A stretch of DNA of 44,926 nt from Saprospiraceae bacterium. GTDB lineage: Bacteria > Bacteroidota > Bacteroidia > Chitinophagales > Saprospiraceae. Location: positions 1 to 44,926 of the forward strand of contig JABDKX010000036.1 in the NCBI GenBank assembly GCA_013001975.1, given 5' to 3'. Below the pieces are notes generated by a model. It worked only from the letters and a program-made list of their open reading frames with translations, did not search any database and was not told where the DNA came from. The translations under genes were made by a program, and so were the position numbers. Positions 14,514-19,137 of this stretch are shown here, piece by piece (the first letter of the stretch is position 1; each line of letters starts with the position of its first letter).

Positions 14514-15413
14514 TTGAAGGTTTCAAAAGAACTCATATTTCTAAATCTAGGTATCATTTTTATGAGTACTTCCGGTATATTCGGAAGGCTTATTTCTATT
14601 AAACCAGAACTGGCTATATTTTACAGATGTTTACTGGCAGCCATCATGTTATTCTTATTTATAAGAATAAGGAAGTTACCATACAAAAATATTGTAAAAG
14701 ATGATAAGCGATTTATATTATTAGGTGGTGGACTGCTAGCATTCCATTGGGTTACTTACTTTTATGCACTTTCAATTCACAGCATTGCAATAGCCATTCT
14801 AACACTGCATACTTTTCCAGTAATGACAGCTATTTTTGAACCGTTGATATTAAAAACCAAGTTTCATTCCTATCATTTATTATTAGCTATTTTAGTTATG
14901 ATAGGCATATGGATTATTTTACCTTCTTTTGACATTGGCGACAAACTTGTATTAGCAACTTTATTTGGTATCGTATCTGCTCTATCTTATGCGCTCAGAA
15001 ATATTTGGACCAAGAAAGTGATGAGCAGGTATAATGGTTCCGTGATGATGTTTTACCAGGTATTTATTGCGATGGTCGTATTATCACCTTACCTATTTTT
15101 TTATGAGTCACATTTTACAACGAACGATTGGATTTTTATTCCTTGCTTGGCATTTGTGACAACGGTACTTGGGCACACATTATTGGTGAGTTCACTAAAA
15201 CATTATTCAGCAGTTACTGTTAGTTTGATCAGTTGTATCATTCCTATCTATGGTGTATTATGGGGCGTAATATTTATAAATGAAATTCCAAATTCTAAAA
15301 CCATTATTGGAGGTAGTTTGATTTTACTCAGCTTTATAGTTGAGTCTTACTTTTCGCAGCGAAACTATAATTTAAAAAAATCAATCATTATTAATACTAA
15401 AGATTTATCATGA
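14514..15413 (+). CDS. EamA/DMT-family transporter
   Basis: 299 aa with about ten predicted TM helices in two EamA halves, such as FLNLGIIFMSTSGIFGRL at the start and LISCIIPIYGVLWGVIFINE in the second repeat. A GG-LLAFHWVTYFYAL segment is typical of DMT exporters. The start is TTG, two bases after the TesA stop, suggesting an operon. Its stop overlaps the next ATG by 4 bp (ATGA). DMT proteins export amino acids, nucleosides or other metabolites; the substrate cannot be told. Confidence 0.9.
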   Translation: MKVSKELIFLNLGIIFMSTSGIFGRLISIKPELAIFYRCLLAAIMLFLFIRIRKLPYKNIVKDDKRFILLGGGLLAFHWVTYFYALSIHSIAIAILTLHTFPVMTAIFEPLILKTKFHSYHLLLAILVMIGIWIILPSFDIGDKLVLATLFGIVSALSYALRNIWTKKVMSRYNGSVMMFYQVFIAMVVLSPYLFFYESHFTTNDWIFIPCLAFVTTVLGHTLLVSSLKHYSAVTVSLISCIIPIYGVLWGVIFINEIPNSKTIIGGSLILLSFIVESYFSQRNYNLKKSIIINTKDLS

Positions 15414-16270
15414 ACGGAAAAATTAGAATAGGAGGCGTTCCAGAACACTTTAACTTGCCAATACATCTGGCCATTGAGAATGGAGATTTCGAATCTAGAA
15501 ATGTAAAAGTTGAGTGGACAACATTTTCAGGAGGGACGGGACAAATGACAAAAGCATTGAGAAATGATGAGGTTGATTTATGTGTTCTTTTAACAGAAGG
15601 AATTATTTCAGACATCATAAAAGGCAATAAAAGCAAGTTAATCAGTGTCTATGTAAAAACACCGTTATGTTGGGGCATTCATACAGGTGCTAAAAATGAA
15701 CTTTCGAACTATAAAGATATATATGATAAAAAATATGGCATCAGTCGATTTGGTTCAGGATCGCATTTAATGCCAATTGTTGATGCAAAAAGCCAAGGTC
15801 AAAATTTGGAAGAAGAACAATTTCATGTTATCAAAAACTTAGAAGGTGCTTTGATATCATTGGATAATCTTGAAACAGATGTTTTTTATTGGGAAAAATA
15901 TACGACTAAACCTTATGTCGACAGTGGCCGTCTGAAAAGAATAGGAGAATACGTTACGCCGTGGCCATGTTTTGTTATTGCTGCAACAGATAAAATTTTG
16001 GAAGAACAACCTGAAAATGTAATACGGGTTTTGAGAACAATTCATGATTCATGTGACCATTTTATGCAAAACGACAAGGCCATTGAAATGGTTTCAGAAC
16101 GATATAATCAAAAATTAGTTGATGTTGAAAGGTGGTTTCATTCAACAGAGTGGGCTATTCATGGATGGGTAAGTAACAAAATGATAGACAGCATAACTTA
16201 CCATTTGAAATTAGCGAATATTATTGATGCTGACGTAGAAATCCCTCCGCTGGTCTGGATTAAACAGTAA
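15410..16270 (+). CDS. Cytosolic type-2 periplasmic-binding-protein-like protein (Ca3427-like)
   Basis: 286 aa without a signal peptide or lipobox. GGVPEHFNLPIHLAIENGDF at the start, EVDLCVLLTEGI in the middle and a TPWPCFVIAATDK hinge segment fit the type-2 solute-binding fold, close to the thiamine-precursor/NMT1-like group and in particular the family named after Candida Ca3427. Lack of export indicates a cytoplasmic binder or enzyme, not an ABC-transporter receptor, and no ABC permease lies beside it. The start overlaps the EamA stop by 4 bp, so the two may handle the same metabolite (inference). A strong hairpin follows. Confidence 0.82.
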   Translation: MNGKIRIGGVPEHFNLPIHLAIENGDFESRNVKVEWTTFSGGTGQMTKALRNDEVDLCVLLTEGIISDIIKGNKSKLISVYVKTPLCWGIHTGAKNELSNYKDIYDKKYGISRFGSGSHLMPIVDAKSQGQNLEEEQFHVIKNLEGALISLDNLETDVFYWEKYTTKPYVDSGRLKRIGEYVTPWPCFVIAATDKILEEQPENVIRVLRTIHDSCDHFMQNDKAIEMVSERYNQKLVDVERWFHSTEWAIHGWVSNKMIDSITYHLKLANIIDADVEIPPLVWIKQ

Positions 16271-16272
16271 AT

Positions 16273-16309
16273 AAAAAAGCCTCCAATGAAATTCAAAGGA
16301 GGCTTTTTT
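16273..16309. terminator. Bidirectional terminator
   Basis: AAAAAAGCCTCC pairs with GGAGGCTTTTTT around a 13-nt loop, with an A run on the left and a T run on the right. It lies between two convergent genes ending at 16270 and 16325, so it can serve both. Confidence 0.9.
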
Positions 16310-16324
16310 ATATTTTCAAAGAAA

Positions 16325-17221
16325 TTACTTCTTCTTTCTAGCTGTTCTTTTAGGAGCAGCTTTTCTAGCAGTTGTTTTCTTTGCAGTAGTTTTCTTAGCA
16401 GTTGCTCTTTTCTTAGGAGCTGCTTTTTTTGCTGCTGCCTTTTTCTTCGGAGCTGCTTTTTTAGCTACTGTTTTTTTTGCAGTAGTCTTTTTAGCAGTTG
16501 CCTTTTTCTTAGGAGCTGCTTTTTTAGCTGCTGCCTTTTTCTTCGGTGCAGCTTTTTTAGCTGCTGCTTTTTTAGCTACTGTTTTTTTAGCAGCCTTCTT
16601 TTTAGTTCCAGATTTCATTTTATTACTATTTGCTATAAATCCAGGGACCTTCACATGTCCCCAATTCTCTCCACTTTCGATACGGTTAACTTGGGTGTGA
16701 CTAACATCATACTTAGCAGCAATTTTACTTTTCGGCATTCTACCTTTTACTAAGTGTTCTTTAATCTTCCTAACCTTCGCTTCCGTTAATTTTGGTTTTC
16801 CACCTTTCCTATGTGGTGTAAAACCATATTTTTTAGCACGGGCTCTTATATACTCTTTCCATTCGTCTTCAGTAACCCAAACTATATTATCTGCTTTATT
16901 ATTAAGTCTGTTTAAATCTTTATGAATAAAACGCGTTGCATTTTTCTTTTTTGGTTTTTTTGACCAATACTTTGCTACTTGCATATGAACATAAAGACCA
17001 TAACTTCCACCTTCTAACTTAATAGAAGACTTTAAATAATCTTTTTTATCTGGGGTTGGATTTAACGTGTGTTCAGAACCGTCATTTTTACTTTTTGATT
17101 TTATACGTCCTTTATTAGAGACGTAATATTCCATTTTCAAAGTTGGACGTGGAGTTTCAATTTTTTTCCAACGTTCACCTGAAAGGTTCTTAACTTTTTT
17201 TTGACGAGTTACGTTTGACAT
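16325..17221 (-). CDS. NUMOD4/HNH-like DNA-binding protein with HTH and histone-H1-like Lys/Ala tail
   Basis: 298 aa. Residues 14-55 match NUMOD4 (GERWKKI, then YYVSNKGRIKS), a module of homing endonucleases. Residues 73-118 look like an HNH core: H79 in VHMQVA, then HKDLNRLNN (H100, D102, N104, N107, N108) and NIVWVT, aligning position by position with HIDGNKTNN plus NLEWVT. Residues 144-188 form a helix-turn-helix (KIAAKYDVSHTQVNRIESG). Residues 203-298 are almost only K, A, T and P in an imperfect 32-residue duplication, like eukaryotic H1 tails or bacterial Hc1/AlgP. It begins 11 bp after hscB. A chromosome-binding protein domesticated from a homing endonuclease is my inference; nuclease activity cannot be excluded. 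Confidence 0.8.
   Translation of the reverse strand: MSNVTRQKKVKNLSGERWKKIETPRPTLKMEYYVSNKGRIKSKSKNDGSEHTLNPTPDKKDYLKSSIKLEGGSYGLYVHMQVAKYWSKKPKKKNATRFIHKDLNRLNNKADNIVWVTEDEWKEYIRARAKKYGFTPHRKGGKPKLTEAKVRKIKEHLVKGRMPKSKIAAKYDVSHTQVNRIESGENWGHVKVPGFIANSNKMKSGTKKKAAKKTVAKKAAAKKAAPKKKAAAKKAAPKKKATAKKTTAKKTVAKKAAPKKKAAAKKAAPKKRATAKKTTAKKTTARKAAPKRTARKKK
16328..16615 (-). repeat. Tandem duplication coding the Lys/Ala-rich tail
   Basis: Codons 203-298 of the NUMOD4/HNH-like gene. Two imperfect copies of about 32 codons share KKTVAKKAAPKKKAAAKKAA-like text with a few T/A and K/R changes. Arrays of this kind are prone to length change by slippage. Confidence 0.7.
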
Positions 17222-17232
17222 CGAATGTAGAT

Positions 17233-17754
17233 TTAATTATCAAAATTATTTTCGATTCTATTGAGATATTTTCGTTTAAGATAATAATCTTTAATTGATT
17301 CTAGGTGCTTTTTATTAGGATTATTAAAATCAAAGTTATTAATAAACTCGCTAACTTTCACAAAAATGTTCAAATGAATAGATTTTATTCTTTTTTGAAT
17401 GGCATTTTTGACTTCTTCTGACTTATCCATTTTGTAATCAAATATAAGTTCGTTCACTTCCATCATTTCCATTAAAAATTCTTGTGGAACTGATTCCTTA
17501 CCTTCTTCAAATTTAATGCCATTTAACTCCAGTAAATATTTAGTGCGAAGCATATCATCTTTTAAGGTTTTAAAACCTTCATTTATAAACGATGATTTCT
17601 CTAAAGCAGAAGTTTGATCATCCAAATTATCAAGCGTAAAATTATCAGGATGACTTTCTCTACTTAATGCATAATATCTTTTTCTCAACAGATCTTTATC
17701 GATTGAAAAACTCATTGGCAGATCGAATAAATTAAAGTAATTCAATTCTCTCAA
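17233..17754 (-). CDS. hscB: HscB: J-domain co-chaperone for Fe-S cluster assembly
   Basis: 173 aa, the normal HscB length. The N-terminal J domain has HPD at 35-37 (SRESHPDNF), preceded by LRKRYYALS. The C-terminal part (PQEFLMEMMEVNE...) matches the HscB oligomerisation domain that binds the scaffold IscU, so this is HscB and not a general DnaJ. With HscA it would drive cluster transfer from IscU. Its ATG directly abuts the rseP stop (17754/17755), so the two are probably cotranscribed. hscA and iscU are not in this window. Confidence 0.88.
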   Translation of the reverse strand: MRELNYFNLFDLPMSFSIDKDLLRKRYYALSRESHPDNFTLDNLDDQTSALEKSSFINEGFKTLKDDMLRTKYLLELNGIKFEEGKESVPQEFLMEMMEVNELIFDYKMDKSEEVKNAIQKRIKSIHLNIFVKVSEFINNFDFNNPNKKHLESIKDYYLKRKYLNRIENNFDN

Positions 17755-19137
17755 TTATATATTTCTCATGATGTCTAAACCCAAAGCATAGACCATCAAA
17801 ATTATTAAAAGACCAAAACCAATTAATGTTGCAATTTCCATCACTCTATCTGAAACTTTTATTCCAGTAATACTTTCAAACAAGAGGAACATCACATAAC
17901 CACCATCTAAGGCAGGAATTGGCAACAAATTTAGAAATCCAAGCAGGATAGATAAGCTTGCCGTCATTATCCAGAATCGTCTCCAATCCCATGTTGATCC
18001 AAACATCTTTCCGATACTTATAAAGCTTCCTAAACTTTCACTGGCTTTAATTTTGCCACTAAACATTTGACCAAACGCTTTCATTTGATCAGTTAAAAAT
18101 TCCCATGACATTGATAAGCCTTTAGGAATTGATTCCATGAATCCATACTTCTCAACTTCGTAGTCAACATAATTCGATTCATCTTCGACTTTAAATCCAA
18201 TTCTTCTTCTAGGTACTGGTTTCTTTCCAAATAATTTTTTTATCGGACTTACCTTACCTGGAAACATTGTTTTATACTCTAAATTTAGTGTATCGCTGTT
18301 TCTTTTTATTTGGAAATTTAAGTTTTCCGTTTTTTCACCTAAAGCTGTATTATAAAAATTGTGAAAATATGGTGTTGGCTTTCCATTGACACCAATTATT
18401 TCATCACCAATTTTTAAGCCTGCTTTTTTTGCCTCTGCTGGAGATTTTTCGTCAAACTCTTTAACTACTGCTGGAAATTTTAAATGAAATAAGCTTGTAT
18501 TTCTGTTTTCGTACTTTGTTAACTCGCCAACAAATTTTTCATCTATAGGGATTAAAGTTTCTGTTCCTTTACGCATTACTTTAATCTCTTTGGCGTCGTT
18601 TATAACGATCTCCTTGGTTAAAACGCGGCTATCAAATTTTTTAATCTCTTTGTCACCAATAGATACCAATATATCATCATCGCGCAATCCCATGTCGTAT
18701 CCCATTTCTGAAACAGTAATGCCTTCTTTGACCGCACTGTTTGGAATAAATTCTACGCCCCATATCCACATAACCATGGCGAAGAGAATAATACCCAAAA
18801 TAAAATTTACTGTAACACCGCCTATCATAATTATCAGACGTTGCCAAGCTGGCTTTGATCGAAATTCATATGGCTTTGGCTCTTCTGCCATTTGTTCTTT
18901 ATCAAAACTTTCATCGATCATTCCGGATATTTTGACATATCCACCTAACGGCAACCAACCGATGCCATATTCTGTTTCTCCTTTTTGCACTTTGAAAAGA
19001 GAAAAACCAGGGTTGAAGAAAAGGTAAAATTTTTCAACTCTCGTCTTAAACCATTTTGCTGCACCAAAATGTCCGAGCTCATGTAGAACTACCAAAATGG
19101 ATAAACTAAGAAGTAATTGTGCAATTGTTACGAACAT
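17755..19137 (-). CDS. rseP: RseP-type site-2 protease
   Basis: Membrane zinc metalloprotease that cleaves anti-sigma factors or remnant signal peptides within the membrane. With the ATG at 19137 it has 460 aa and begins with the TM helix holding HELGH (19-23). A longer frame from 19194 would start inside the promoter, so the shorter start is chosen. PDZ segments lie in the middle (KEFDEKSPAEAKKAGLKIGDEIIGVNG). The second conserved motif, NLLPIPALDGGYV, lies in the C-terminal TM region and is followed by the last TM helix. It leads the probable operon rseP-hscB-NUMOD4. Confidence 0.94.
   Translation of the reverse strand: MFVTIAQLLLSLSILVVLHELGHFGAAKWFKTRVEKFYLFFNPGFSLFKVQKGETEYGIGWLPLGGYVKISGMIDESFDKEQMAEEPKPYEFRSKPAWQRLIIMIGGVTVNFILGIILFAMVMWIWGVEFIPNSAVKEGITVSEMGYDMGLRDDDILVSIGDKEIKKFDSRVLTKEIVINDAKEIKVMRKGTETLIPIDEKFVGELTKYENRNTSLFHLKFPAVVKEFDEKSPAEAKKAGLKIGDEIIGVNGKPTPYFHNFYNTALGEKTENLNFQIKRNSDTLNLEYKTMFPGKVSPIKKLFGKKPVPRRRIGFKVEDESNYVDYEVEKYGFMESIPKGLSMSWEFLTDQMKAFGQMFSGKIKASESLGSFISIGKMFGSTWDWRRFWIMTASLSILLGFLNLLPIPALDGGYVMFLLFESITGIKVSDRVMEIATLIGFGLLIILMVYALGLDIMRNI

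Follow-up and report, generated by a model that had tools for sequence, protein, structure and literature searches.

A probable nuclease-dead relative of I-HmuI with a histone H1-like tail encoded behind rseP-hscB in Saprospiraceae

Known systems and the gene behind hscB

NUMOD4-HNH_3 endonucleases such as I-HmuI combine a NUMOD4 motif, a beta-beta-alpha HNH fold and a helical DNA-binding C-terminal part. The DNA-binding domain of AP2/ERF plant factors is said to derive from HNH homing endonucleases; these factors are eukaryotic and keep the AP2 domain, not the HNH core. WhiA (DUF199) is a chromosomal protein reported to possess a LAGLIDADG domain without metal binding and catalysis and a C-terminal helix-turn-helix (HTH) that binds DNA, and to act in regulation and chromosome segregation (PMC10714963, PMC3781837). 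Among basic repeat proteins, Hc2 of Chlamydia is described as containing 36-residue repeat elements in variable number (PMC2848022), and AlgP of Pseudomonas as consisting of a folded N-terminal part and a 154-residue KPAA region (PMC9239181). A search of titles and the beginnings of abstracts returned no publication on an HNH homing endonuclease domesticated as an inactive transcription factor and nothing relevant on histones of Saprospiraceae, and papers on NUMOD4 were, judged by title, mostly phage papers.

The gene described here is located on contig JABDKX010000036.1 of Saprospiraceae bacterium (assembly GCA_013001975.1), in a stretch of 44,926 nucleotides that was analysed as a whole and is referred to as the window. 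It occupies positions 16325..17221 of the minus strand and encodes 298 amino acids in a clean open reading frame with an ATG start. The product consists of a NUMOD4 motif (residues 16-63, 17033..17176, placed by Pfam PF07463 and genome search coordinates), a degenerate HNH core of beta-beta-alpha type (residues 75-132, 16826..16999), an HTH followed by a GENWGHVK motif (residues 143-191, 16649..16795) and a K/A/T/P-rich, H1-like tail (residues 203-298, 16328..16615), all on the minus strand. Upstream at a distance of 11 bp lies co-directional hscB (17233..17754, minus strand; Pfam HSCB_C and DnaJ), itself preceded by co-directional rseP, coding for a site-2 protease with PDZ domain (17755..19137, minus strand; Pfam Peptidase_M50, E 3.2e-55). 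This combination of domains and operon context, already proposed in a preliminary description made from the sequence, is borne out by Pfam, PHROGs, the predicted model and the neighbouring genes.

All three parts of I-HmuI recur in the window protein. Unlike I-HmuI, it has I99 and W121 in place of D74 and N96, and its family is chromosomal, with a conserved HTH and with a tail in few species. WhiA is the closest working analogue of this family, with a LAGLIDADG instead of an HNH fold and in Gram-positive bacteria instead of Bacteroidota; the parts of the WhiA sources consulted describe no H1-like tail. The tail shares K/A/P-rich repeats with Hc2, AlgP and PhaF, its unit being 32 residues versus 36 in Hc2. 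In contrast to these proteins, it is joined to a NUMOD4/HNH/HTH core, and its score with the HC2 model is below cut-off.

Downstream of the gene, an inverted repeat with A/T runs (AAAAAAGCCTCC..GGAGGCTTTTTT; 16273..16309, no strand assigned) was read by eye between convergent genes and is a possible two-way terminator; a terminator scan restricted to loops of 3-8 reported none at this place. The convergent neighbour (15410-16270, plus strand) encodes a Ca3427-like protein of periplasmic-binding fold (PF22384, E 4.1e-19), which adjoins the family gene in two other species of the genus (G013 and G008) too. Antisense to the tail, a 155-residue Ser/Phe/Cys-rich open frame (16286-16753, plus strand) looks like a shadow of Lys/Ala codons, not a gene.

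Fold, metal site and selection

The NUMOD4 motif is recognised by PF07463 (E 7.8e-7, 29.7 bits against a cut-off of 23.4). The genome yielded no second NUMOD4 match, and at E<=0.01 the motif occurs in 69 of the 70 members of our alignment A1. HNH_3 (PF13392) matches residues 99-119 weakly and below cut-off (E 0.0023), Pfam HTH models give weak matches as well, and PHROG_59, labelled 'HNH endonuclease', is matched with E 2.2e-20. NCBIfam contains no model that matches the window core at E<=0.01 or that matches more than two of the 70 members.

Residues 1-195 were modelled by AlphaFold2 on alignment A1 with mean pLDDT of 92. The HNH core is formed by helix 78-86, strands 97-100 and 113-116 and helix 118-132, and in the predicted model the HTH comprises helices 147-159, 164-170 and 175-183. 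When this model was compared with the PDB by Foldseek, I-HmuI (1U3E) alone reached E<=0.001 (E 2.8e-7); I-HmuI was also the best of PDB chains searched with a sequence profile (E 1.1e-15). Over the whole chain the TM scores are low (0.44 and 0.48, rmsd 9.7), which we attribute to the way the domains are arranged. Modelled by themselves on a 37-sequence alignment (pLDDT 90.5), residues 1-135 superpose on 1U3E with Foldseek E 9e-7, query TM 0.61 and rmsd 3.7 over 115 columns at 27% identity, and so display the beta-beta-alpha HNH fold that the preliminary description had predicted. No degenerate LAGLIDADG domain is present; the protein is not a WhiA, though by analogy its working mode may be WhiA-like.

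Catalytic residues of I-HmuI are reported to be D74, H75 and N96 (PMC12724721). In a profile alignment, with numbering counted on the 1U3E chain, D74-H75 correspond to I99-H100 of the window protein and N96 to W121; one of the three, H100, is kept. The residues highlighted in the preliminary description (H79, H100, D102, N104, N107 and N108) were all found, but its list omitted the decisive metal-ligand positions 99 and 121, both of which are substituted. Among 101 distinct family members, position 99 is occupied by I (75), V (12), L (8), C (4), T (1) or A (1), and position 121 mostly by M, L or W, with N in one. A larger sample, gathered by similarity to the window protein and its relatives, comprised 179 distinct full-length cores, defined as profile matches spanning at least 150 model positions. 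None of these 179 has D, N or H at both metal-ligand places; position 99 is D in a single member, a tandem-duplicated copy at locus L243, and eight members have N or H at position 121. In contrast, ten comparators set apart from the 179 (eight phage proteins, one plasmid and one IMG/VR protein) have Asn at position 99 in seven cases, at 121 in nine and at both in seven.

The general-base position H100 is kept in 177 of the 179 members and N112 in all of them. Since both are nearly invariant, the site appears to have lost its metal ligands rather than to have decayed altogether, and judged by sequence some chemistry may still be possible. Nevertheless, the nuclease of this family is probably dead. 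For comparison, HNH_3 proteins of Bacteroidota were surveyed at 30 loci, seven of them without readable motif. Outside the family (family score below 100), D or N precedes the His in 8 of 17 proteins readable by pattern, the other residues being H (4), R (3), E (1) and A (1). The six matches with family score above 100 have I (3), A (2) or L (1) there, and the two with A retain N at the second place.

Mean pairwise identity, estimated from 3000 random pairs, amounts in the family to 34% for NUMOD4, 41% for HNH and 52% for HTH with GENWGHVK. In the comparators, of which there are only ten, the order of the latter two is reversed: 34% for NUMOD4, 47% for HNH and 31% for HTH. Conservation in the family, as judged from these alignments, appears to have moved to the HTH, where it is higher than in either of the other two regions. 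For the core of the window gene and its G013 orthologue, Nei-Gojobori-type estimates gave dN of 0.085 and dS of about 1.5, the latter near saturation, with dN of 0.046 in the HTH part; corresponding values are dN 0.179 and dS 0.85 for hscB, and dN 0.187 with saturated dS for rseP. Core dN was lower than that of both hscB and rseP in all three pairs formed by the window, G013 and G008. The core is under purifying selection.

In-frame stops flagged in some matches led us to suspect pseudogenes. Seven such loci were inspected, and in six of them the stop directly follows the conserved C-terminal motif, so that those six genes are whole. The flagged matches in G354, G295, G252, G743, G733 and G710 lie outside this check.

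Distribution and genomic position

Family matches were obtained in 24 of 60 relatives. Across Bacteroidota, with the window genome included, matches occur in 30 of 395 genomes at E<=1e-30, rising to 39 when the limit is relaxed to E<=1e-10. In the window's taxonomic family (here f1) 116 of 398 genomes match, in 42 of 112 genera; 88 of the 116 have one match and 28 have two to eight, some in tandem. Within the window's genus 11 of 14 genomes match, with one copy each. A contig scan yielded 241 related stretches, and the titles of 80 of these are Bacteroidota bar one Chlorobiota MAG, with Saprospiraceae MAGs as closest relatives among the 80. The same scan met strains of Flectobacillus, Siphonobacter and Chryseolinea, culturable relatives whose member of the family has no tail. 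One tandem array of family genes, L243 (G645:C33:3000-9000), has open frames of about 330-344 residues, at least one of them with two domains, and includes the copy that has D at position 99.

All genus members with at least 60% identity, seven in number, are located behind rseP-hscB, including tail-less orthologues (60-65% identity) in four species. The hscB gene was found in 12 of 14 genus genomes (11 of 13 plus the window), and the family gene follows it in seven. It is missing from this place in five (G001, G003, G005, G009 and G011), four of which carry a distant member, of 40-49% identity, elsewhere in the genome. Neither rseP nor hscB was seen beside other family loci among those tested, with flanks of 1.5-5 kb or more as contig ends permitted; among these loci, the position is limited to the window's clade. 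Members across Bacteroidota are mostly tail-less and situated elsewhere in the genome, and ORF clustering of 90 loci outside the rseP-hscB set detected no neighbour shared by more than 15 of them.

Because the family is widespread, mostly tail-less and found at other loci, the metal site seems to have been lost before either the operon site or the tail was gained. Tail-less orthologues behind rseP-hscB suggest by parsimony that the gene reached the operon before it acquired the tail. The likely order is thus loss of the metal site throughout the family, then operon position in the window's clade, then the tail in three species of that clade. This bears on the preliminary proposal that a selfish endonuclease has been domesticated in this operon as a nucleoid-associated protein: domestication as such is favoured by substituted metal ligands and purifying selection, but it does not seem to have taken place in this operon or with this tail.

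Descent of the present family from plasmids or phages was considered and rejected: two plasmid and 53 phage records were retrieved, with identity below 60% among the matches listed (40 of the 53 for phage). In IMG/VR, five weak matches were obtained with the family profile and none with residues 1-135.

Basic extensions and possible function

The tail of 96 residues with a 32-residue duplication, as initially described, was recovered: shifted against themselves by 32 positions, residues 203-298 are 75% identical, a value for which 500 shuffles gave at most 53%, and the underlying DNA has a 96-bp period with 2.5 copies and 86% matches. Counted as an extension, i.e. at least 60 residues with more than 30% K+R (on the N-terminal side from the first in-frame Met), it spans 104 residues with a net charge of about +45 and no acidic residue. 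By composition and periodicity it is a K/A/P-rich, acid-poor, repeat-built tail. The HC2 model PF07382 scored 22.6 and 30.8 bits against a cut-off of 40, and NF038053 scored 35.1 against 80; the G013 orthologue passes PF07382 with 64.6 bits. Since HC2 remains below cut-off, the earlier term 'H1-like' rests for the window tail on composition.

Extensions were detected in 8 of 179 members, all within f1, a ratio that is not a frequency since some regions were chosen for long open frames. Three are C-terminal (window, 104 residues; G013, 146; G008, 74) and five N-terminal, namely in G005, a member of the window's genus at another locus (92 residues), in genus g241 (G573, 172; G636, 152; G679, 81) and in G700 of genus g18 (158). 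All eight contain 39-50% K+R and 0-5 acidic residues, with net charges of +29 to +79. Shorter basic tails, of 22 and 33 residues, are found at the C-terminus of two family members from genus g267. The three proteins found with a long C-terminal tail all keep synteny with rseP-hscB. Neither a core failing to superpose on NUMOD4-HNH nor a lack of such synteny, the two outcomes named in the preliminary description as speaking against it, was found. It has to be corrected in that the same kind of extension is N-terminal in other members.

A tree was constructed from 81 f1 cores (190 columns, extensions left out), in which the window, G013 and G008 form a clade with support of 100/98. The fewest state changes on this tree are five for long extensions and six with short ones included, a count that does not separate gain from loss. 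Since extensions are absent from 71 of the 81 rows and the C- and N-terminal types are attached to opposite ends, we read at least three separate gains: C-terminal in the window clade, N-terminal in G700, and N-terminal on the G005/g241 branch, either once with subsequent losses or repeatedly.

In all four genus genomes having the fusion (G000, G013, G008 and G005) no other HC2-like match was obtained at E<=0.1, and of the ten without it six have HC2-like matches and four none. This pattern is suggestive only. Several other open frames of similar composition were encountered. Two small free-standing H1-like frames, L118 1314-1661 (plus strand, 116 residues) and L195 1027-1221 (plus strand, 65 residues), lie on G009:C240, no more than about 2 kb away from a family gene that has no tail. 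L189 1318-2025 (minus strand, G007) encodes 236 residues, in which a non-repetitive N-terminal part is followed by more than 20 VAKKA repeats, and L190 1261-2919 (plus strand, G002) encodes 553 residues with a long K/A/T-rich H1-like region.

We consider it likely, with a probability of about two in three, that the window gene codes for a domesticated, nuclease-dead relative of I-HmuI, i.e. a DNA-binding body to which the tail adds non-specific affinity in its clade. The NUMOD4/HNH scaffold devoid of its metal site would serve as this body. The HTH with the GENWGHVK segment would most likely recognise a defined DNA sequence, the protein acting either as a regulator or as an architectural protein at particular sites, and in the window clade the repeat-built basic tail, presumably disordered, would contribute electrostatic DNA affinity and residence time. 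A nucleoid-associated role is plausible, and the observations fit equally well a regulator that is sequence-specific and held on DNA by its tail. Counting against the reading as a domesticated, nuclease-dead protein are the retention of H100 and N112, the N or H at position 121 in eight of 179 members, the D at position 99 in one tandem copy, the 28 multi-copy genomes of 116, and the absence of the gene behind hscB in five of 12 genus genomes.

The protein could instead be a general architectural protein of the nucleoid, in which the tail does the work and the core merely anchors it. Such a role would suit the H1-like composition and strong charge of all eight extensions, the lack of a second HC2-like match in the four fusion-bearing genomes, and the comparable nucleoid-tied tails reported for AlgP and PhaF (PMC9239181). 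However, the HC2 model stays below cut-off in the window, and 171 of 179 members have no extension while their HTH is strongly conserved, which means that the ancestral function is independent of the tail. We regard this alternative as rather doubtful.

The extension might also be a nearly neutral expansion of low-complexity repeats without selected function. Tails rich in K and A can grow by replication slippage; the 96-bp repeat, the different lengths in three closely related species (74, 104 and 146 residues) and the scattered occurrence of few extensions on the tree agree with such growth. Given the different lengths in close species, partly neutral repeat growth is possible. On the other hand, extensions of like composition recur at both termini in several lineages of one protein family, and each of the three species in the window clade has kept the tail in frame. 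We regard a nearly neutral origin without selected function as improbable.

We find it very unlikely that the gene is still selfish and its product an active homing endonuclease that nicks DNA using a non-canonical metal site. The near-invariant general-base His and N112, the labels of homing or HNH endonuclease in PHROGs and PADLOC, and the multiple, partly tandem copies in some f1 genomes would fit an active enzyme, but both metal ligands are replaced, mostly by hydrophobic residues, where seven of ten comparators have Asn at both. Moreover, the gene is single-copy in the 11 matching genomes of the genus and sits at the same place in the seven closest, and its viral and plasmid records are few or distant, as given above. 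Basic tails in general are able to bind polyanions, which would allow for a binder of RNA or polyphosphate rather than DNA. AlgP is reported to act on polyphosphate granules (PMC9239181), but the core has the fold of a DNA enzyme with the HTH as its most conserved part, and we hold this reading to be the least probable.

The family as a whole could be a Bacteroidota 'WhiA': an old, phylum-wide HNH family of nuclease-dead proteins that bind DNA sequence-specifically and which in f1 repeatedly became chromatin-like through an H1-type tail at either end. We would put even odds on this broader proposal. If true, the same change from regulator to chromatin protein was rerun several times in evolution, and this HNH counterpart would be a second case of domestication beside the LAGLIDADG protein WhiA, with another fold and without a curated family. 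Repeated H1-like tails at both termini of one DNA-binding body would constitute a natural replicate experiment on tail function, for which tail-less orthologues at the same operon position are controls.

Upstream regions of the gene were aligned in six genome groups in search of a shared operator, and a clear block was seen by eye only in genus g63, which belongs to the window's class. There (L144-L153), all 10 genomes carry a conserved 20-bp block, AGCGTTATARNAATCATAAA, which precedes the gene by about 95-115 bp. It is the only site with at most one mismatch in each of these genomes, and possibly represents an autoregulatory site or a promoter element.
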